A stretch of 64,000 nucleotides of DNA from an uncultured Lachnospira sp. (lineage in GTDB: Bacteria > Bacillota > Clostridia > Lachnospirales > Lachnospiraceae): positions 1 through 64,000 of the forward strand of contig CALWKC010000008.1 of assembly GCA_944381165.1 (NCBI GenBank). The letters are read 5' to 3'. Shown one piece after another: positions 4,270 to 50,196 of this stretch. Below the pieces are notes generated by a model. That model saw only the letters and a list, made by a program, of their open reading frames with translations, did not search any database and had not been told where the DNA came from. A program made the position numbers and the translations under genes. The first letter of the stretch is position 1; every line of letters starts with the position of its first letter.

Positions 4270-4476
4270 TTAATTGTTCTGTACGCCGTACTTTCTGTTA
4301 AACTTATCAATACGTCCGCGTGCGGTAGTAGCCTTCTGCTGTCCTGTATAGAAAGGATGACACTTTGAACAGATTTCAACATGAATCTCTTCCTTTGTTG
4401 AGCCTGTTACAAACTCATTACCACAGTTGCAGACAACCTTTGCCTGATAGTATGCTGGATGGATTCCTTCTCTCAT
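4270..4476 (-). CDS. rpmE: 50S ribosomal protein L31 (zinc-binding type)
   Basis: A 68-residue L31 of the large ribosomal subunit. It carries the four-cysteine zinc site of the primary form (VCNCGNEF and [11 protein letters not shown]) rather than the zinc-free paralog. The ATG at 4476 has an AGAGGTG ribosome binding site six bases upstream; the GTG nine bases earlier overlaps that site and is unlikely to be used. A strong promoter (4565-4593) and a structured leader lie upstream and a terminator follows, so it is probably a monocistronic, separately controlled transcript. Confidence 0.95.
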
Positions 4477-4494
4477 TCTTTTCACCTCTTTAAT

Positions 4495-4558
4495 ATAATC
4501 TTTATTATCATTGCAAGACTTAAACTTACAAAGTATTTCTTTGTCTTTGATAAGCAGC
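4495..4558 (-). promoter_or_regulatory. Structured rpmE leader, candidate L31 autoregulatory element
   Basis: Between the promoter and the ribosome binding site the leader can form a nested hairpin: 4548-4553 with 4505-4510, 4543-4547 with 4515-4519, and 4539-4542 with 4530-4533. On the right side the three pairing segments are contiguous. Structured leaders that bind L31 are known in Firmicutes. The fold is seen here; the assignment as an L31-responsive leader is inference. Confidence 0.45.
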
Positions 4559-4564
4559 TTTGAT

Positions 4565-4593
4565 ATTGTAACACATAGGTTATACTAATGCAA
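4565..4593 (-). promoter_or_regulatory. Sigma-A-type promoter of rpmE
   Basis: -35 TTGCAT (4593-4588) and -10 TACAAT (4570-4565) with 17 bp between them, about 90 bp upstream of the rpmE start. Confidence 0.75.
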
Positions 4594-4676
4594 GCTGTTT
4601 TTTTAAAACGCCGCCAAAATTTAACCAAAAGCCGCAAAAATCGCCAAAATTCCGCTGATTTGCCGATTTGCTGATT

Positions 4677-35466: not shown

Positions 35467-35840
35467 AAAAAACTTTCGCCCTTAAATATGCCGGAAACAT
35501 GTAAATCCATGTTTAAAGCACACTCAAAGACGAAAGTTCTGACTTCCGCGATACCACTTTGATTGCCGTCATGCGACGACCACTCTGTCCTATCTCCCGC
35601 CCCGACAGCAATATGTACGCATGCATAAGCATGTTCAAAAAGCGTCCGAGCCGGAACAATAAGCTTCCATGTAACGGTAGAAACCCGGTGACACTTAATC
35701 TTCACCTCCGGCAAATTTCAGTGTACTGCTCGCAGAGGATGTTACCCGGAATTACATACCGCCTCACACCTGCCGACGGCTCTCTGAAATGAAACATTTC
35801 CGGATAAACTGTTCTGTTCATAGCATTTAACTTTCTGTTA
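35467..35840 (-). promoter_or_regulatory. T-box leader of cstA
   Basis: Read on the minus strand: Stem I with a GA-type kink near its base, a CCGGAA/TTCCGG helix, the AGAGA bulge and a GGTGTGA apical loop (about 35825-35725). The T-box core AGTGGTATCGCGG lies at about 35558-35546. An intrinsic terminator follows, AACTTTCG (35538-35531) with CGAAAGTT (35478-35471) and a run of Ts, enclosing an inner hairpin. Aligning the specifier loop with known T-boxes by distance to the kink suggests codon ATC (Ile) at 35740-35738; this codon call is tentative. Uncharged tRNA would favour antitermination. Confidence 0.85.
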
Positions 35841-41193: not shown

Positions 41194-44100
41194 TTAATCC
41201 GCGAAGCTGCAGCCGATATAACCGCCGTTTTCTCCTGCAGTATAGAGACTGCTTGTCGTCTTAAGCTCATACAGACCTCCGAGATTAATACTTCCGTCAT
41301 CATTTCTGAAAATCTCATGATAGTCTGCTGTATAAGCCCCTGTTGATGCGTTGTAGCCAGGAATCTCCGTGCTCACGAAATCAGAATTGCTCACGGTATT
41401 TTCTCTTGCCTCAGAACCTGTATACTTGGTCTTTGCTCCGTCAGTGCATGTCCACTGATTTACCCAATAATATCCCTGTCCTTTATAGTTATACAGAACA
41501 TGGCTGAGCTCTCCTTTGAACTGGTCTGTCGCAGATGAAGATGATGCCGCTACAGACAATATGTTAGTGTACTTTGCGTCTGCTGACGTCCTGTAACACA
41601 TGTAATTTGCCTTATTTGTGTCATATTTTCCGTTATTTACAGCAGTACAGTTAGTCATTGTAACAGCTCCGCCGTTTCCGTTATCGGTAAATCCTGTAGC
41701 GCCGTTGTTAAACGCAAGGCAATTCTCAACCACATGAGGCGTAGGGCATTCGCCGTTGCTGCCTCCGAGCTTAAAGCCGTTCATGTCGCCGTTTGCCGAG
41801 CCCGTGCCGTCAGTAAGCTTGCCGTTGCCAAATGCAACGCAGTTCTTGATTGTCACAACACCGATAGGACCTGTCGCAGGCTTTGCGTATAAATCCCAGC
41901 CGTCATCGCTGTTGCAGTATGAAATACATCCGTCAAATACATTTCCCTCACCGCATGTAAGCTTTGCTGCAAAGCCGTCCGCATTCTCGCATGTAGCCAA
42001 ATCCTTATTGTTATATGCTGTACAGTTAAGAATTGTATTGTATGAAGGCCACTGTTCAATGCTGTCATAGCTTGTGTTGTATCTGCTGAGCTGCAGGCCT
42101 GTATCATGGTTGCCGTAGAATTTGCAGAGTTCGATTATATTATAATCGCCTGACAGAAGCATACCGTTATCGCCTGCATTGCAAATATCGATGTCATAGA
42201 AATGCCAGTATGAGCCGTCAAGAGTAATTCCTCTGTTAGAGCCCGCCTCAGCCATTCCTTCAAAGTCTATTGTAACTGTCTTTCCGTTAATACTGCTTAT
42301 CTTCTTATAGCCAAATGCGTTTCCGCTGTTGCTCTCATCAATTATGATAGGAGCGTTGTACATTTCATATGCATAATATGTACCTGAAAACATCCATATT
42401 GTATTTCCTGCATTTACGGTATTTATAGCAGTCACCAAATCCATAGGATCTTCAAATGTACCTGCCGCAGATGAAGTTCCGTTTACAGAGACATAAATAT
42501 CTCCAGCCTTGTAATCAGGCGCTTCCTCACGCACCTCATCATCGTCAGTATCTCCCGTATCTCCTCCCGGATTTGTCGGTTTTTCTTCCGGTGTTGTAGG
42601 CTGCTCACCAGAGCTTCCCTGTCCCGTAACAGAAATATAGTATAGATTAGCTGTGTCAGCCTTTGTTATTGTATGGCTTCCTGCCTCCAAATTAACTGTG
42701 AGAATTCCGTTTGATGCGGTCAGCTTCTCGCCGTCAACTTTTATACTATTTGAGAAATCCGAGTTAAATACAAGCGTAAGTGTTCCCTCAGACTCCATTG
42801 TAAATGAAATATTTGTAGAGCTTTCAATCTTTAAACATTTTGTAAGCGTAAGACCGTTATAATTAACAGTTCCTTTGCTTGAAGACATATTACCCTCAAT
42901 TACAAAGTAATCGCTTGTCTTATCCTGTTCTGTAAAATTGTGTGTATATGTTTCAGAAGTACTTGGAACAGTCGGCTCCTCTGTTGGTTCTTCAGTCGGC
43001 TGTTCTGTAGGCTCCTCTGTTGGCTCTTCAGTCGGCTCTTCTGTAGGTTCCTCTGTTGGTGTTTCCGTCGGTTCCTCTGTCGGTGTTTCCGTCGGCTCCT
43101 CGGAGCTGTCCTGTACAGTCACTGATATATAGTACAGATTAGCTGTATCAGCCTTTGTTATTGTGTGGCTTCCTGCCTCCAATTCAACCGTAAGAATTCC
43201 GTTTGAAGCCGTCATCTTTTCGCCGTCGATATTGATGCTCTTTGAGAAATCAGAGTTGAATACAAGCGTGAGTGTTCCCTCAGATTCCATTGTAAACGAA
43301 ATACTTGTAGAGCTCTCAATCTTTAAGCAATCTGTAAGTGTAAGACCGTTGTAATTAACAGTTCCCTTGCTTGAAGACATATTGCCCTCAATCGCAAAGT
43401 AATCGCTTGTCTTTCCCTGCTCTGTAAAGTTATGTGTAATTGTGCCTGTAACAGTTGGAGTAGTAGGTTTCTCCTCCGGTGTTGTCGGCTCTTCTGTTGG
43501 CTGTTCAGTAGACTCTTCCGGTATTGTCGGATTCTCGCCGGAGCCGCCTGGATTTTCACTTGAAGTGCCGTCCATTCCGCCTACTGACTTAAGCTGTGAA
43601 GTATATGACATAAGCTTTGACTTAAGCTCCTGATTTACTTCATACGACTCATCATCAACAGAATTATCAAATGTCCACTCAAAGTCTCCTCCGTTCATAC
43701 GTCCGGCAAAATTAACTACTGTGTTCTTTGCGTCCTCAGCAGACTGAACAGTATAACTGTAAAAGTTTGATGCGGTATCAAAATTGCTGTATTTAGAACC
43801 TCCCTTTGTAGCTGTGCAGTCTATAACCTCATCTCTTGATGATGCGAGATAAAAGTCAAACTGGTCAGAACTCTCATTCTGTGTCACAGCAGCCTTAGCT
43901 CCCTCGATATGATTTCCGTATGCCTTGATAACGCCGCCGTTCTCGCCGCTGAATGTACCGCTTGAGGTGTCTGAATAAAGAATATCAGAGCCCTGGCCTG
44001 CCATTAACATAGGATACTTGCAGTTTCTGAAATAGTTGTTCTCCACAAATACAGAGCTGCCCATTGTAGCGCCAACTCCGTATTTTGAATTACCATCATA

Positions 44101-45210
44101 GTAATTGTTATAAATATGAACTGTGCATGTCCTTATTCTAGGATGTCTTGAATCTGAATGGTCATACCAGTTATGATGATATGTGATATAATTTTCTGTA
44201 GATTCACTCTTCATGCCCTGAAGGTTACTCTTACCGGTATCATAAAAATGATTATATGAATGTGTTATATATGTAGATGTCTTTGTATCAAGAGCGCCGT
44301 CGCCCTTTACCTGGTCTGCATCAGAGCCGGCATGTCCGTAAAAGAAATCACAGTTGTGCACCCATACATGGTCATTTTTCTGCTGAAGTCCTACATTATC
44401 TCCCTCTGAACTGTCGCAGTTCATAAAAGCAAGATTTCTGAGCTCAACATTGCTTGAATTCTTTATTCTTATTCCAAAGCCGTTGATTGTCGAGTCCTCG
44501 CCAACACCCTCAAATGTAATTCCGTTGGTGCAGCCGTCTATAACAATATCGCCCTTGTCCATAACAGCCATATCTGTGATATTTCCGATAAATCTCACAC
44601 ACAAAGGTCTGCTGTCTTTGCCCTTCTTAAATCCGTTGATAATCGCCTGAATACCAACGCAAGGATTTGAGGTTGCCCCTGTAACCTCAAGTGAAACCTC
44701 GTCCTTATTTTCCTCTGTGATATATAAAACCACAGCGTTGCTCTTGAGCGTTCCGTCATCATTGTAAGCTCCTGATGATGTACCGTTCACAAAGCCGTAG
44801 CCGCTCCTGTCATGCGCATATACATTAATCGCTGATGTCTGCGCGTACACTGAGCCGCTCTCCAAAACAGCCTCAACCTTTAATGTGTAGCTGCCCGCCT
44901 TTAAGCCAAGCGCATCTACACGCCAGTAATCCGGATATTCTCTGATTAACTCGTTGTCGAGCTGTTTGTAAGCTGAGTCAGAAGCTGACGCTTCCTTTAC
45001 ATATGCCTTGTATCCTGTGGCTCCTTCCACAGCATACCACTCCGCATATGCACTCTCAAACCACCCGTCTGACTCTTTAATTGTCAGACTTGTCTGCACG
45101 CTTCTTGTAGCCGCAGTTACACCCATCTGCAGCATAGAAGCGAGCACCATTACGAAAGCCAGCATAAACGCTACGGCTTTCCTGCACTTTTGAAAATGCC
45201 TCTTCTTCAT
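41194..45210 (-). CDS. Secreted bifunctional pectate lyase (PL1 + CBM77-like x2 + PL9)
   Basis: A 1338-residue exported pectinase. After a signal peptide (to about residue 34) come a fibronectin-like N-terminal region, a PL1 beta-helix lyase (about 130-510; DGALDTKTSTYITHSYNHF, catalytic DSRHPRIR), two near-identical modules of about 105 residues (about 590-695 and 755-860) resembling pectin-binding CBM77, joined by a Thr/Pro/Glu repeat linker, and a PL9 domain (about 900-1338; CENADGFAAKL, NSDDGWDLYA, catalytic Lys in MNGFKLGG). Both lyases cleave polygalacturonate by calcium-dependent beta-elimination. The same order is known in Ruminococcus flavefaciens PL1/PL9. No wall anchor or dockerin is seen. 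The start ATG at 45210 has GGGAG. Confidence 0.9.
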   Translation of the reverse strand: MKKRHFQKCRKAVAFMLAFVMVLASMLQMGVTAATRSVQTSLTIKESDGWFESAYAEWYAVEGATGYKAYVKEASASDSAYKQLDNELIREYPDYWRVDALGLKAGSYTLKVEAVLESGSVYAQTSAINVYAHDRSGYGFVNGTSSGAYNDDGTLKSNAVVLYITEENKDEVSLEVTGATSNPCVGIQAIINGFKKGKDSRPLCVRFIGNITDMAVMDKGDIVIDGCTNGITFEGVGEDSTINGFGIRIKNSSNVELRNLAFMNCDSSEGDNVGLQQKNDHVWVHNCDFFYGHAGSDADQVKGDGALDTKTSTYITHSYNHFYDTGKSNLQGMKSESTENYITYHHNWYDHSDSRHPRIRTCTVHIYNNYYDGNSKYGVGATMGSSVFVENNYFRNCKYPMLMAGQGSDILYSDTSSGTFSGENGGVIKAYGNHIEGAKAAVTQNESSDQFDFYLASSRDEVIDCTATKGGSKYSNFDTASNFYSYTVQSAEDAKNTVVNFAGRMNGGDFEWTFDNSVDDESYEVNQELKSKLMSYTSQLKSVGGMDGTSSENPGGSGENPTIPEESTEQPTEEPTTPEEKPTTPTVTGTITHNFTEQGKTSDYFAIEGNMSSSKGTVNYNGLTLTDCLKIESSTSISFTMESEGTLTLVFNSDFSKSINIDGEKMTASNGILTVELEAGSHTITKADTANLYYISVTVQDSSEEPTETPTEEPTETPTEEPTEEPTEEPTEEPTEQPTEEPTEEPTVPSTSETYTHNFTEQDKTSDYFVIEGNMSSSKGTVNYNGLTLTKCLKIESSTNISFTMESEGTLTLVFNSDFSNSIKVDGEKLTASNGILTVNLEAGSHTITKADTANLYYISVTGQGSSGEQPTTPEEKPTNPGGDTGDTDDDEVREEAPDYKAGDIYVSVNGTSSAAGTFEDPMDLVTAINTVNAGNTIWMFSGTYYAYEMYNAPIIIDESNSGNAFGYKKISSINGKTVTIDFEGMAEAGSNRGITLDGSYWHFYDIDICNAGDNGMLLSGDYNIIELCKFYGNHDTGLQLSRYNTSYDSIEQWPSYNTILNCTAYNNKDLATCENADGFAAKLTCGEGNVFDGCISYCNSDDGWDLYAKPATGPIGVVTIKNCVAFGNGKLTDGTGSANGDMNGFKLGGSNGECPTPHVVENCLAFNNGATGFTDNGNGGAVTMTNCTAVNNGKYDTNKANYMCYRTSADAKYTNILSVAASSSSATDQFKGELSHVLYNYKGQGYYWVNQWTCTDGAKTKYTGSEARENTVSNSDFVSTEIPGYNASTGAYTADYHEIFRNDDGSINLGGLYELKTTSSLYTAGENGGYIGCSFAD
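42615..43440 (-). repeat. Duplicated CBM module and PT/PE linker repeat
   Basis: Two copies of an approximately 315-bp module (about 43440-43125 and 42945-42625) are nearly identical in DNA, for example over 43150-43400 versus 42655-42905. Between them lies a run of Glu-Glu-Pro-Thr codons (about 43105-42965). This indicates recent internal duplication. Confidence 0.85.
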
Positions 45211-45568
45211 GTTTAAACTCCCTTTTACATTATTTGGGAAATACATTCCCTGAGGCATATATTAGCACATTTGCCATAACAATCAACTGTCTTTTTGTTT
45301 ATATTTTCCATTTTATTGTATTTATTTAAGTACAATCTTACAAATTATTCTTAATATATTCACACTAGTGCAATCAGGCTATTTTAATCATATATAGCTT
45401 TACTGTTAAATTATCTCTTATATAACACACTCTTTACACTTTATATCAGATTATTTTTCTGTATTTTGTGGCTTAATCAAGACTTTTTCACTTGCAATCA
45501 CAGTAATTTTTACTTACACTTAACAGCGTGACTATAAATAAAATATAACCTAAGAAGGGAGCATTTTT
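45211..45568. other. Divergent intergenic region pectate lyase / MATE
   Basis: AT-rich 358-bp gap. It contains the pectate lyase promoter; on the MATE side only a weak TATAAA near 45533 is visible. No obvious operator palindrome. Confidence 0.55.
45259..45286 (-). promoter_or_regulatory. Promoter of the pectate lyase gene
   Basis: -35 TTGATT (45286-45281), -10 TAATAT (45264-45259), 16-bp spacing, about 50 bp before the start codon. Confidence 0.65.
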
Positions 45569-46993
45569 ATGGACAGCCAAAATACAGCAAGTTCAGAATT
45601 GACAGAAAAGGATAAAAAATTCAGAGACTTTGCGTTAAACGGAAATCTCTGGAAGGTTATTTTTTATGTATGTATACCGCTTTCAGCTTTTCAGCTTTTT
45701 AACCACCTGTTTAACATACTTGACACGATGATGGCATCACATGTCAGCGCCATTGCAGTGTCTGCGGTAGCCTACCTGTCACAGCTCCAAAACATGATAA
45801 GCGCTATAGGCGTCGGACTGGCAGTCGGAAGCTCGCTTAAAATCAGTGAGGCGTACGGTGCAGGCGACTATAAACTTGTCAAAAAACGATTAAGCACCTT
45901 GATTGCAATATGCGCTATATGTTCGGCGGCAGTCCTTTGTATGCTTCCATTTACACCTGCGCTGCTTAGAGCCTGCGGAACACCTGACGATTTTATCGCA
46001 GTAGGCACAAAATATTTTGTAATCACACTTTTTTCAACCGTTTTAAGCTTCTTCAACAATGTTTACATAGCAATAGAGCGTTCACGCGGAAATTCAAAAC
46101 GAATCCTGCGCCTGAACATGTTTGTAATTATTTTAAAGCTTTCAATAACAGCATTTTTTATTTACGGTCTGAATGCCGATATTACCATGATTGCAGTTGC
46201 AAGCGTTATATCACAGGCTTTTCTGTTTATAATGGCAATACACAATCTTTTAAAAGGAAACGATGCATTTACCTTCAGCTTCGGCAGTATTCGTTTCAGA
46301 AAAAACATTGTTAATCCCATGTTAAGTCTCTCTTTTCCTGTAATTGTGGAAAAGGTTGCCTTCGCGCTCGGCAAAACCGTAATAAATTCAATGAGCAAAA
46401 ACTACGGCTCTGTTACTGTAGGAGCACTCGGCATTTCCAACAACATAAACGGAATAACCACTCAGATGCAGAACGGCTTTCAGGACGGCGGAGCTTCGAT
46501 AATCAGCCAGAACCGCGGTGCAGGAAATATCAAACGCGCTCTCGGCACCTTCTGGCGTCTGCTTATAATTGAATCTGTTATCGGACTTATCATGTATATT
46601 GTTTTAAATGTATTTGCCGGCCCTATAACTTATCTGTTTGCGAACAGCACCGAGGGCTTTAATGAAGAATTCCAGAAAACAATTATCCGTGTATTCCGAT
46701 ACGATTCCTTCGGCGGATGCGTTCCGCTCGGCGTAAACTGTGCGGTTATGGCTCTGCTGTTCGGTTTCGGAAAAACAAAGCTCACGCTTCTGTGCAACTT
46801 CTGCCGCGTGTTTATCTTCAGAATACCTATTCTGTGGGCTCTTCAGAACTTTACCAATCTGGGAAGCGAGAGCGTCGGAATTGTAATGGGAGCAAGCAAC
46901 ATACTCACAGCTATGATGTCCAGCATAGTTGCATTCTTTGTAATCAGGAATATAAAAAAAGAAATGTCGGAAAAAAATAAGAACTCTCAATAA
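45569..46993 (+). CDS. MATE family efflux transporter
   Basis: A 474-residue membrane protein with 12 hydrophobic segments in two homologous halves. The first half shows FNILDTMMASHVSAIAVSAVAYLSQLQ and GVGLAVGSSLKISEAYGAGD, the second TQMQNGFQDGGASIISQNRGAG, both typical of MATE exporters, which expel drugs or metabolites using Na+ or H+ gradients. The ATG at 45569 follows AAGGGAGC. It is divergent from the pectate lyase gene; no functional link is evident. Confidence 0.92.
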   Translation: MDSQNTASSELTEKDKKFRDFALNGNLWKVIFYVCIPLSAFQLFNHLFNILDTMMASHVSAIAVSAVAYLSQLQNMISAIGVGLAVGSSLKISEAYGAGDYKLVKKRLSTLIAICAICSAAVLCMLPFTPALLRACGTPDDFIAVGTKYFVITLFSTVLSFFNNVYIAIERSRGNSKRILRLNMFVIILKLSITAFFIYGLNADITMIAVASVISQAFLFIMAIHNLLKGNDAFTFSFGSIRFRKNIVNPMLSLSFPVIVEKVAFALGKTVINSMSKNYGSVTVGALGISNNINGITTQMQNGFQDGGASIISQNRGAGNIKRALGTFWRLLIIESVIGLIMYIVLNVFAGPITYLFANSTEGFNEEFQKTIIRVFRYDSFGGCVPLGVNCAVMALLFGFGKTKLTLLCNFCRVFIFRIPILWALQNFTNLGSESVGIVMGASNILTAMMSSIVAFFVIRNIKKEMSEKNKNSQ

Positions 46994-47004
46994 TATAGCA
47001 TGAA

Positions 47005-48059
47005 ATAAAAATAAAAATCGAACGACCGTTGTATCTTTTTACGCTTTATGATTATGTAATCTATTGATTATATAACCATATGCTCATTTGATACAACGGT
47101 CGTTCTCAGACTCTTCTTCGTTATTCAATTTTTTTCTCCTTTTCGATAACTGATTGAACGGTTTCAACCTCATCGATAACTATTACATATTAGATGTAAC
47201 AGTTTGTTTTCTGCTTTCGCAGTTTTTCTTTTTCCCTGCTCGTAATGACTTTTTCTTATTGATTATTTTCTTTATAAGATTTCACATCTTTGATTCTATC
47301 CGTTCTTTGAAATCTATTACTTTTTATAAGCTATCTTTTATGACTTTTCATTTTCATTCATATTGCTTTATTGATTTTATCATCTTTAAAATTACTTGTT
47401 TTGCTTTAAATACCAGATTTATTATTCATACAAGATATTGAATATTAAATCTTTTATTCTCTGCTTTGCTTTCATTTTTATTATGAATAAATCCTTTAAG
47501 CTTCTGATTTTTAAATGAATAATCTTTTTGATTGCTCATCTACCGGAAATAAATTTCTTTCCCGGATATTATCTTTTCAATGTTCTGTCTTGTAAAAATC
47601 CTAATCTTTTAAGAATGTCTCTTACTTAGAAAGTTACTACATTTTAACTTTAATAATACGAAGTTTCAGTATATCAGGATTATTCACTATCCCAATATCT
47701 TCAAAATGTATGAAGTATATTCCCTTTCAATCTCTGCTCTTATGTCAGAAACTTTCAAGTTGTATAAATCATAGATTTTTCCAGCCTTTGTTTCTTTACA
47801 CAAATTCGGAATCTTCTGTATTACCTTTGTGGTATCTGTTCAATATGAAATGCCAGCTATTGTAACCTTTCACGTTTACATCATCTCTAAATCTTATGAC
47901 GTTATCTATCATTTCACATATTGGAAAGGTCTTTCTTGCGGGGAACTGCTATGCACTACCACCTTCATATTGAGGATTTGATTCTATTATCTCCAACGGA
48001 ATCAACCTCCTTTACAACTTGAACACTTTTTGTTTGTGTTTTTGTTGTTTCCTTTTTGT
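47005..48059 (-). ncRNA. Candidate large structured non-coding RNA (about 1.05 kb)
   Basis: No intact gene lies here; the longest open stretches are under 60 codons. A strong promoter (48094-48066) and a terminator hairpin followed by T-rich sequence (47105-47005) bound a complete minus-strand unit. Perfect helices in RNA order: TTGATTC/GAATCAA near 48000; 47930-47924 with 47871-47865 crossing 47923-47910 with 47852-47841 (pseudoknot-like); 47315-47308 with 47284-47277; a CTGC-GAAA-GCAG tetraloop hairpin (47222-47211); 47199-47194 with 47188-47183; 47169-47163 with 47158-47152; and the final 16-bp stem. A ribosome-binding-like AAAGGAGG occurs at 48013-48006. The alternative is a decayed gene, since two adjoining frames read somewhat like protein. 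Confidence 0.6.
47020..47105 (-). terminator. Long terminator hairpin of the 47-48 kb RNA unit
   Basis: Perfect 16-bp outer stem (47105-47090 with 47035-47020). The enclosed sequence folds further: an 8-pair stem (one G-U) and a 5-bp stem with AATA loop near 47081-47044. On the minus strand it is followed by GATTTTTATTTTTATTT; on the plus strand there is no T run after the second arm. Confidence 0.7.
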
Positions 48060-48065
48060 AATTGT

Positions 48066-48094
48066 ATATTAGCATGCAGTTGTATATTTGTCAA
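48066..48094 (-). promoter_or_regulatory. Strong promoter of the 47-48 kb RNA unit
   Basis: -35 TTGACA (48094-48089), 17-bp spacer, -10 TAATAT (48071-48066). The upstream flank is a long A/T tract (about 48101-48127) that could act as an UP element. Confidence 0.75.
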
Positions 48095-48251
48095 TACATT
48101 TTTTAAAATTTTTTTTGATTTTTTTTAACCTTTTTGCTTTAGCCTTTTCTTTTCTTTATAATTGTGTATATATTATAGAATATTCTGATAATTTATGTGG
48201 TTTATAGTGCATTACTCCTGCCCTAATCATCGATATAAAGCTTACGTTAAT

Positions 48252-48376
48252 CCGTCACACAAAAAGAGTTCGCTTGCGAACGAGTAGTTGAGGACATAAC
48301 GGTGCGCGGCATTAATACCGTCACACAAAAAGAGTTCGCTTGCGAACTCTTTCGCGAGGCGCGGATTCGTAAGAAT
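48252..48376 (+). repeat. Dispersed palindromic repeat, copies 2 and 3
   Basis: A 30-bp exact direct repeat (48252-48281 and 48318-48347), each ending in GAGTTCGCTTGCGAAC. The second copy continues to 48376 with the same flank seen, inverted, at 24581-24632 (only a few differences). The 36-bp segment between the two is unrelated. Confidence 0.75.
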
Positions 48377-48411
48377 AATTACCTTTCCGCGTCTCTGCGA
48401 TCCTGCGGAGC

Positions 48412-48460
48412 ATTTTTGTTCTATAGGAAAGTTCAAAGAACTTTCCTATAGAACAAAAAT
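48412..48460. repeat. Perfect 23-bp inverted repeat hairpin
   Basis: Arms 48412-48434 and 48438-48460 are perfect reverse complements with an AAA loop. It lies between the dispersed repeats and the terminator of the cohesin-like gene. Confidence 0.85.
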
Positions 48461-48496
48461 ACAGCCAAAGGCATTAAAAACACCCCGGCTGTATTT
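48450..48496 (-). terminator. Terminator of the cohesin-like gene
   Basis: Ten-bp stem (48487-48496 with 48457-48466), followed on the minus strand by TTTTTGTTC. It overlaps one arm of the 23-bp inverted repeat, so the two structures exclude each other. Confidence 0.65.
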
Positions 48497-48537
48497 CTTA
48501 TTATTTACCCATGCGGCAAATCAAACTTATATGCCAA

Positions 48538-50196
48538 TTAACGGGTATTATTATCTTTGTCTTCTGACAGTTCCGATATGTCAAGAAGCTCTACGGAGTC
48601 ATCGGACGTTTCCGGAGATGAAGCTTCATTTTCAATCTCTGTATTTTCATATTCATCGTTTTCTCCGTCCGCGAAATCCTCGTCATAATAATTTTCATCT
48701 TCAAGAGAATCCTCGTCGTCTTCAAATATATCTTCATCGTCGTCAAAGCTTCCGCCCACTAGCTCTCTTGCAATTTTTCCGTTCTTTGAAGCCTTAGCCG
48801 CGCATACACACGCTGTTATTATTGAAATTACCGCTACGGCGGCCGACGCAAGGCTTATAATTTTCCAGAACATGCTTCCCGAAAAGAAACCGGAATTATC
48901 TGCGTCAGCCGATACGCCCTGTGCTTCGCTCTGTGATTTTATCGTATCAGGAAAGGCAAAAAAGCGCTGTATTGTATTATATTTATAGTCATAGCTGTAC
49001 CAGCCTGATATTCCGTCACTGTTTATGCCGTAAAAAACGCAGTACTCATCGCTGCTTCCCTTAAGCACACTGACATTAACGCCGTTTATCTGCGCTTCCT
49101 CAATTCTGTAGCCTGACGGAAGCTCCATTGACGAGGTGATAGGAAGAATAATATAGCTTATTTGCGGCTGCTGTATTTCATTATATCTGACAAATGTCTC
49201 TGAAACGCTGTCATACACATAAAAACCTGATTGTTCCGACGATATAACGGCATCAAGATACATAATAACAACTTTTCCGGAATAACCGACTCCCGCCTTA
49301 ACAGACTGTCCGTTATACTCATACTCGGCCTCAGAAAAGCCCGACGGAAGCGGATGCATTGTAAAATCGTCAGATATTATAAAGTCAGTTCCGTTCACAC
49401 TGACCATTACAAGCTGTCCGCCGTCATCTGTACTTTCTTCCGGAGCCTGACTCTCCCCCTCCTGCTGTGTTTCATTTTCGCCTGCCGCCCTTGTTACCCG
49501 GAGTGTATATGTCCGCTGTTCGCCGTTTTCAGCAGTTACGGTCACATATATATAGTTAGTTCCCACGCTTAAATACGTTCCCGAAACTGATACCGACGCA
49601 TTATCATCATTTGCATATGCGCTCACGGTAAGTCGCTCACAGCTGTTTTCAACCGATACCGAATACGAAGTTTTATCAGACGAAAATGAAGGGTACAGGC
49701 TCCCAGGGCTAACCTGAAGTGAAGAGAGCGAATTGTCATTGGATGCCGCCTCAGGGTTATAACCTGAAACTGTAAGAGAAAACGGCATAACCTGCATCGG
49801 AAATGGTCCGGGGCGCGGGCTGCTATCATGTACCTGTGAGCCTGAAGATACTTTTATTGTAGATGATCCTGCTTTCAAGATTTTAAACCTAATTTTTACC
49901 GAAGTAACACCATCTCTGAAAACAATCCATTTTAAAGTTTCTGCATCTTCTCTTTCACCGGGACTAATACTAATATACTCAAGCATTTGCGGTTCATAAA
50001 CTATAAGTATCTCACCTGCTGAAATCGTTTGATTAGCTCTATATGTTATTGTCACTTCGACTTCTTCACCCACATTTCCAGAAACAGAATCACCGTAAAA
50101 CTCTACTTTACCTTCAGCAAAAGCAACATTGCTTTCTTTAAAAAATACTACTAAAAATAACAGTAAAAATATAATAAAAAATTTCGTTTTTTTCAT
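48538..50196 (-). CDS. Membrane-anchored cohesin-like/cadherin-like surface protein
   Basis: A 552-residue surface protein. Order: signal peptide (to about 28), a cohesin/CBM-fold domain (about 30-145; VGEEVEVTITYRANQ, VYEPQMLEYISIS), a cadherin-like beta-sandwich (about 155-240; LSSLQVSPGSLYPSFS, TVTAENGEQRTYTLRVTR), a long extracellular region, a membrane helix (about 440-465) and a very acidic cytoplasmic tail with many Asp/Glu. Cohesins bind dockerin modules; the gene 60 bp upstream encodes a dockerin-bearing hydrolase, so this may be its receptor. Cohesin assignment is by pattern and diverged. The ATG at 50196 has GGAG seven bases upstream. Confidence 0.75.
   Translation of the reverse strand: MKKTKFFIIFLLLFLVVFFKESNVAFAEGKVEFYGDSVSGNVGEEVEVTITYRANQTISAGEILIVYEPQMLEYISISPGEREDAETLKWIVFRDGVTSVKIRFKILKAGSSTIKVSSGSQVHDSSPRPGPFPMQVMPFSLTVSGYNPEAASNDNSLSSLQVSPGSLYPSFSSDKTSYSVSVENSCERLTVSAYANDDNASVSVSGTYLSVGTNYIYVTVTAENGEQRTYTLRVTRAAGENETQQEGESQAPEESTDDGGQLVMVSVNGTDFIISDDFTMHPLPSGFSEAEYEYNGQSVKAGVGYSGKVVIMYLDAVISSEQSGFYVYDSVSETFVRYNEIQQPQISYIILPITSSMELPSGYRIEEAQINGVNVSVLKGSSDEYCVFYGINSDGISGWYSYDYKYNTIQRFFAFPDTIKSQSEAQGVSADADNSGFFSGSMFWKIISLASAAVAVISIITACVCAAKASKNGKIARELVGGSFDDDEDIFEDDEDSLEDENYYDEDFADGENDEYENTEIENEASSPETSDDSVELLDISELSEDKDNNTR

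Follow-up and report, generated by a model that had tools for sequence, protein, structure and literature searches.

A large structured RNA of Lachnospiraceae-type gut bacteria with a pseudoknotted 5' domain and predicted ribosome start signals

The 64-kb window (the whole stretch of 64,000 nucleotides that was analysed) carries on its minus strand, at 48059-47005, what comparative sequence analysis identifies as a real, free-standing chromosomal RNA gene with its own promoter and terminator. The reality of the RNA family is near certain, and family and anatomy taken jointly are, in our judgement, very probably right. The general marks of a large structured non-coding RNA were found, i.e., covarying structure, an own promoter and terminator, and no conserved protein. 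By kind, it falls among the large structured bacterial RNAs, from which a conserved ribosome start at the pseudoknot appears to distinguish it.

The limits of the predicted RNA (47005..48059, minus strand) derive from promoter and terminator: its start was set ~7 nt past the -10 box and its end at the T-rich tract behind the terminator. The promoter (48066..48094, minus strand) had already been recognised in an earlier note on this DNA and combines a -35 TTGACA (48094-48089) with a TG-extended -10 TAATAT (48071-48066) over a 17-nt spacer. Promoter-like sites within the window alone were not above chance (6 found vs 8.7 expected), and the case thus rests on comparison. Of the 94 loci tested (97 in all), 65 have a promoter of the same extended type (TTGACA...TG.TA..AT) ahead of the core; base-shuffled sequences averaged 0.02 and the reverse strand gave 0. 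Promoter and core are separated by under 100 to ~480 nt, depending on the locus. The terminator hairpin of the earlier note (47020..47105, minus strand) is likewise a real inverted repeat followed by a T-rich tract, and a covarying hairpin occupies its position in relatives, as seen in a column-pair scan of 45 full-length loci. Two further repeats were observed upstream. A long inverted repeat, GTTCTATAGGAAAGTT...AACTTTCCTATAGAAC, at 48408-48470 between the promoter of the RNA and the next gene, is perhaps a terminator or a repeat element, and CACACAAAAAGAGTTCGCTTGCGAAC occurs twice at 48258-48345, each copy by eye being capable of forming a hairpin.

Consistent with the reading that the interval holds no intact gene, the sense strand, which is indeed purine-rich (purine 62%, GC 29%), contains no frame that has a usual start codon and reaches 40 aa, and its longest stop-free run is 50 codons. 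Four antisense frames reach at least 40 aa (95, 51, 50, and 40 aa); the three that were searched (95, 51, and 40 aa) matched no Pfam family. In 6 of 33 loci, an antisense frame of 90 aa or more lies over the core. Proteins encoded in these frames, which the earlier note would have counted against an RNA, were observed in none of the relatives.

Judged by covariation, the 5' domain is a helix P1 crossed by a helix P2 in an H-type pseudoknot, followed by a hairpin P5 (all on the minus strand). P1 pairs 47964..47973 with 47840..47849, and P2, which crosses it, pairs 47957..47962 with 47829..47834. The strands follow in the order 5' P1a-P2a-...-P1b-P2b; in the window, 1 nt (47963) joins P1a to P2a and 5 nt (47839-47835) join P1b to P2b. 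P2 has 6 bp in the window and frequently a seventh pair in relatives, and its covariants include GUGAUA/UAUCAC, GUGGCA/UGCCAC, and GUGACA/UGUCAC. Inside P1/P2 lies P4 (47924..47930 with 47865..47871), which covaries in the full-length alignment of 45 loci and keeps all 7 pairs in 30/43 relatives. Between P2 and P4, a further helix (P3) was recognised by eye; it is included in R1, the covariance model of the core, its pairs standing outside all counts. P5 (47779..47812) has an inner stem at 47804-47800/47791-47787 and the loop GUAAAGAA at 47799-47792. Its inner pairs give the strongest covariation of all and its outer pairs are less regular; the P5 region is without letters in 7/66 aligned loci. 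In one locus (L048, 1501-1608) the core is reduced to a minimal 108 nt with the P4 insert almost gone, which suggests that P1/P2/P5 may be the essential part.

Several measures support these helices. In a plain MAFFT alignment of 30 cores, 98.2% of the cells of P1, P2, and P5 were standard-paired, and double changes occurred in 12/20 pairs. Sliding the partner strand lowered the pairing to at most 48.4% (30 cores). The observed pairing was equalled by 0/500 shuffles on each of five measures, a test that leaves shared ancestry in. Changes on both sides were seen in 15/20 pairs when 66 model-aligned cores were compared. In a scan of all column pairs to which no structure was given, and which used 45 of the 97 loci (full-length), P5, the terminator, P1, P2, and P4 were among the highest scores; the other high pairs formed no discernible helix and look like alignment noise. 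An alignment of seven loci shows, in the 5' part, conserved blocks at the promoter, the GGAGG box, TCAATATGA...GTGGTA, TCATATTGA...TACCAC, and the GTAAAGAA hairpin, and, in the 3' part, TTGAATAA ahead of a hairpin in most.

These comparisons change the picture of two long helices crossing each other that the earlier note had drawn. A pseudoknot exists, formed by P1 and P2 and not by the pair originally proposed. The first of the proposed helices (47930-47924/47871-47865) is P4. The second (47923-47910/47852-47841) would be in competition with P1; one of its halves shows full pairing in 1 and the other in 2 of the 43 relatives, and uncompensated drift applies to this helix alone. The GNRA-capped stem CTGC-GAAA-GCAG is present at 47222-47211 and shared by 2/97 loci, namely the window and its near-identical twin L007. 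Both the second helix and the GNRA stem are thus present, but no more than chance can explain, and were rejected as conserved parts. Neither is the RNA ornate throughout: conservation is confined to the 5' domain, the 3' end (59/97 loci), and short boxes. Between the two ends, alignments inspected by eye reveal a variable middle (47232..47759, minus strand) whose length differs widely between loci and which contains the conserved boxes CUUGAAAGU (47759-47751), ACUUUCUAAGUAAG (47634-47621), and UUACGAGCAGGGAA (47245-47232), all on the minus strand.

When the window, 7 close relatives, and 20 wider loci were searched against Rfam 15, nothing within the RNA reached the gathering threshold. The models of OLE, GOLLD, ROOL, and raiA, the last of which also has an Rfam model, were absent from the sub-threshold matches (window 46500-48600; 8 loci). 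In the window, the best of these matches were microRNA models on a hairpin at ~48396-48476, outside the RNA, and two weak ones inside it, freshwater-2 (E 2.3) and sn2991 (E 2.4), lay far below the cut-offs; in the 8 loci, hairpins of L057 and L081 matched two microRNA models. Membership in an Rfam family was therefore rejected. Given that covariation indicates a structured RNA, the lack of an Rfam match supports a new family, absent from Rfam 15, and settles the choice of the earlier note between a member of OLE, GOLLD, or ROOL and a new class in favour of the latter. A literature search, conducted without most subscription papers and supplements, found no paper that we recognised as describing this RNA. 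Replacements for tmRNA or 6S RNA were also rejected, as neither model matched here and both RNAs were located elsewhere in the genome (G000:C21 and G000:C12, respectively). The only gathering-level Rfam match of the window is a T-box leader at 35523-35830 (minus strand, 104 bits).

Just upstream of the pseudoknot, 22-29 nt ahead of P1, the sequence supports a ribosome start consisting of a Shine-Dalgarno (SD) sequence, a start codon, and a short leader frame. The SD box AAAGGAGG (48006..48013, minus strand) has a median anti-SD pairing energy of -11.0 kcal/mol over 94 loci, compared with -0.2 at background positions inside 59 of the RNAs. It is followed by a leader frame of 15 codons, TTG...TAG (47949..47996, minus strand), which extends across the 5' strands of both P1 and P2. 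The leader could be parsed in 95/97 loci; in L024 the site lacks an NTG, and L129 had been read from the wrong strand. The first base of the NTG is A in 50, T in 39, G in 6, and C in 0 of the 95 loci, and a quick tree requires at least 18 changes of this base. Start and P1 are 23, 26, or 29 nt apart, i.e., one frame, in 82/95 loci; the spacing is different in 13/95. In 77/95 loci the start frame is open up to P1, compared with 56.5±4.7 in shuffled leaders (0/1000 as high) and 58 in each other frame; the remaining 18/95 leaders stop after 2-4 codons, before P1. The 23/26/29-nt distance is found in 73/77 of the frames that run through P1 vs 9/18 of the early-stop leaders. The encoded peptide is not conserved as a peptide, and its variants follow the RNA pairs. 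CC/GG flank the NTG, which might therefore be conserved in part as a tiny hairpin.

A second ribosome start apparently lies ahead of the terminator, less firmly established than the first; the earlier note had mentioned translation start signals at neither end. In the window, the 3' mini-frame beginning with TTGAATAA (47084..47128, minus strand) is preceded by AAAGGAG (47142-47136) and ends inside the terminator; in most relatives, the stop falls just before it. We collected 59 of the 97 loci by hand, based on the motif, and left out 38 in which it was missing, cut off, or located in a neighbouring gene, so that the evidence is weaker than at the 5' end. Among these 59 selected loci, the NTGAAYA behind the purine box has a median anti-SD energy of -5.0 (background -0.2), the start codons are TTG in 52, GTG in 3, ATG in 3, and CTG in 1, and the frame has 6 codons in 43. 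An in-frame stop occurs within 14 codons in 58/59 (TAG35/TAA12/TGA11) and within 9 codons in 56/59, vs 54% of other NTGs. The motif TTGAATAA by itself closes both other frames.

The best explanation for these features, to which we assign a probability of roughly 0.4, is a trans-acting RNA that is loaded with ribosomes and whose pseudoknot is gated by leader translation. In the window and in most relatives, part of the leader frame also forms the 5' strands of both helices, P1 and P2, so that by geometry a translating ribosome and the folded pseudoknot should be mutually exclusive. The RNA would act in trans with ribosomes loaded, and a ribosome at the 5' site would shield it from decay. During leader translation, the ribosome would run across both 5' strands, those of P1 and P2, and the pseudoknot would form only if translation were slow, blocked, or absent. 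Once folded, the domain (P1/P2/P4 and the GUAAAGAA hairpin) would bind a putative partner, and the RNA would thereby be a reporter of the translational state. In the 18/95 loci with early stops, the ribosome would end beside the unopened pseudoknot, and the role of the site would be limited to docking and protection. These loci, together with the 13/95 with other spacing, indicate that translation would not open the pseudoknot in every locus. Engagement of ribosomes as such is made plausible by the stabilisation through strong SD sequences described in PMC3997798 and the ribosome binding of GOLLD described in PMC12286853. Use as a switch, action in trans, and protection by ribosomes are all steps that we infer, and the gating mechanism by itself is tentative. 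The full combination of two-ended ribosome starts on a ~0.5-1 kb RNA, leader translation switching the domain, and the free RNA reporting in trans seems unlikely. To our knowledge, no RNA class that can be named works by two-ended ribosome starts and a leader-gated pseudoknot reporting in trans.

Alternatively, and in our view rather unlikely, the ribosome sites might only stabilise the RNA against 5' decay in the manner of STAB-SD leaders, with the RNA itself being a scaffold or an RNA-only assembly like OLE, GOLLD, or ROOL that works independently of the translational state. The very strong SD, the promoter-to-core distance of under 100 to ~480 nt, and the early stop of 18/95 leaders would fit such a role, as would the stabilisation of untranslated RNA by strong SD leaders, even without a start codon, that PMC3997798 describes. 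However, a bare SD would require no start codon, no kept frame, and no second start at the 3' end.

It is improbable that the RNA is a dual-function RNA or an mRNA for tiny peptides. While the leader frame is open beyond expectation and the 3' frame closes with switching stops in 58/59 loci, the lack of a conserved peptide argues against this reading, as do leaders of 2-4 codons in 18/95 loci. Moreover, in L040-L042 P1 has changed in ways that alter or disrupt the frame but retain the pairs.

The RNA is widespread within one bacterial family. A DNA search of 98 genomes found matches in 11, and seven loci with colinear blocks were taken further; short matches to the low-complexity middle in three genomes of other families (G068, G073, and G074; E 3e-4 to 6e-4) were taken as chance. 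With R1 (E≤0.01), 61/397 family genomes matched, and with the broader covariance model R2 (E≤0.001) 81/397, representing 68/334 genera. All 29 matching genomes in an order-wide sample of 392 belong to the same family. In a phylum-wide sample, the own genome alone among 398 matched; the sample holds at least 4 other family members, all without a match. Scanning named genomes with a pattern yielded 40 contigs, labelled mostly Blautia, Lachnospiraceae, Eubacterium/Eubacteriales, Scatomonas, and Ruminococcus, further Lactonifactor, Lachnospira, and Egerieimonas, and singly Thermoflexaceae, Eubacteriaceae, and Firmicutes. From these names, which include the isolates Blautia hansenii and Lactonifactor longoviformis, the carriers appear to be Lachnospiraceae-type gut bacteria. 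In the genus of the window, 5/22 genomes, own included, have strong matches; six further matches are weak (E 0.1-0.9), and five of these (all but G020:C15), inspected by eye, have no such domain. After merging loci with identical first 120 nt, 97 of 113 loci remained. One match was found in 78/81 positive genomes, 6 candidates per genome having been scored, so that further copies could be missed. G358 (L059) has two core copies, 1528-1755 and 4373-4601, ~2.8 kb apart, and two matches each were seen also in G140 and G308.

A convergent MATE gene flanks the RNA of the window on one side, and a gene with cadherin-like and cohesin domains on the other. G010 and G015, two genomes of the same genus, have no RNA at this site: there, ~40-50 nt separate the MATE gene from a homologue (36% identity) of the other neighbour. 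Further along, at 41194-45258 (minus strand), a frame of 1354 aa with EEPTE-like repeats reads, by eye, like an extracellular pectate lyase-type enzyme. Across 106 entries with 91 distinct cores, counted per distinct core, the neighbours recorded include an aconitase-like gene upstream (26 cores), an RluA-type pseudouridine synthase-like gene downstream (23), and a TPR-like gene downstream (18), each named from a reading of its sequence. Neighbours are shared within and differ between clades, which suggests that the RNA keeps its place within clades and moves or is lost between them.

Such patchiness, with strong matches in 5/22 genomes of the genus, the empty site in G010 and G015, and sites that differ between clades, could point to a mobile or selfish RNA element. 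We consider this quite improbable, given that 78/81 positive genomes had one match among the candidates scored, the site recurs in many genomes, and no transposase was noticed beside the RNA. In addition, the pattern scan gave 0 matches in viral contigs and blastn 0 in phage and plasmid records; cargo of phages or plasmids was rejected on these grounds. A cis-acting leader or attenuator of the downstream gene is very improbable. It would account for the mini-frame ahead of the terminator, as in attenuators, and for downstream genes that recur within clades, but the downstream gene differs by clade and the MATE gene of the window is convergent, for which reasons a cis role was rejected. The same two observations argue for trans rather than cis action in the preferred, ribosome-loaded RNA. 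Lastly, AT-rich, purine-rich sequence yields many chance helices, to which the second helix and GNRA stem of the earlier note may belong, but a decayed gene or chance helices can be dismissed, considering the covariation of P1/P2/P5 (0/500 shuffles), the structure-free column scan, the conserved promoter, and the frames tested without a Pfam match, the last of which also led us to reject a pseudogene.

Families of large structured RNAs are few. PMC12286853 describes GOLLD as large, often over 800 nt, with one conserved and one variable region, bound to ribosomes in pull-downs, and carried in phages or prophages, often near tRNAs; ROOL as large and pseudoknotted, with no protein partner identified; and OLE as a large bacterial RNA for which a link to a ribosomal protein was proposed. 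According to the same text, GOLLD, ROOL, and OLE have Rfam models, and the function of GOLLD and ROOL is unsettled. The RNA described here shares with GOLLD its size and the division into a conserved and a variable region, but its conserved domain is 5', whereas that of GOLLD is 3' (PMC12286853). Unlike GOLLD, it has no phage matches and no Rfam match, and a tRNA search found none in the 64-kb window; the phage or prophage and tRNA-island setting of GOLLD and ROOL was thus not encountered (0 viral or phage matches, 0 tRNA in the window). It resembles ROOL in being large and pseudoknotted (PMC12286853) and differs in having no Rfam match and none in phages or viral contigs; it also has translation start signals. 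OLE is similarly a large bacterial RNA, but no Rfam match links the two. With STAB-SD leaders of the cryIIIA type it has in common a strong SD in the leader; in Bacillus, strong SD leaders are able to make long untranslated RNA more stable (PMC3997798). STAB-SD leaders are mRNA leaders, whereas no coding sequence lies downstream here. As in uORF and attenuator leaders, SD and short frame lie over structure and are followed by a terminator (uORF motifs: PMC11109978); in contrast to them, and to riboswitches, there is no conserved sense-direction downstream gene, the neighbours being clade-specific and the MATE gene convergent. The breadth of the family (68/334 sampled genera of one bacterial family) and its presence in cultivable isolates (Blautia hansenii and Lactonifactor longoviformis) mean that the RNA could be knocked out and probed. 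In our judgement, the conserved ribosome start beside the pseudoknot offers a direct, testable handle on function. Together, the ribosome start signals at the pseudoknot and near the 3' end suggest that ribosomes take part in the working of this RNA.
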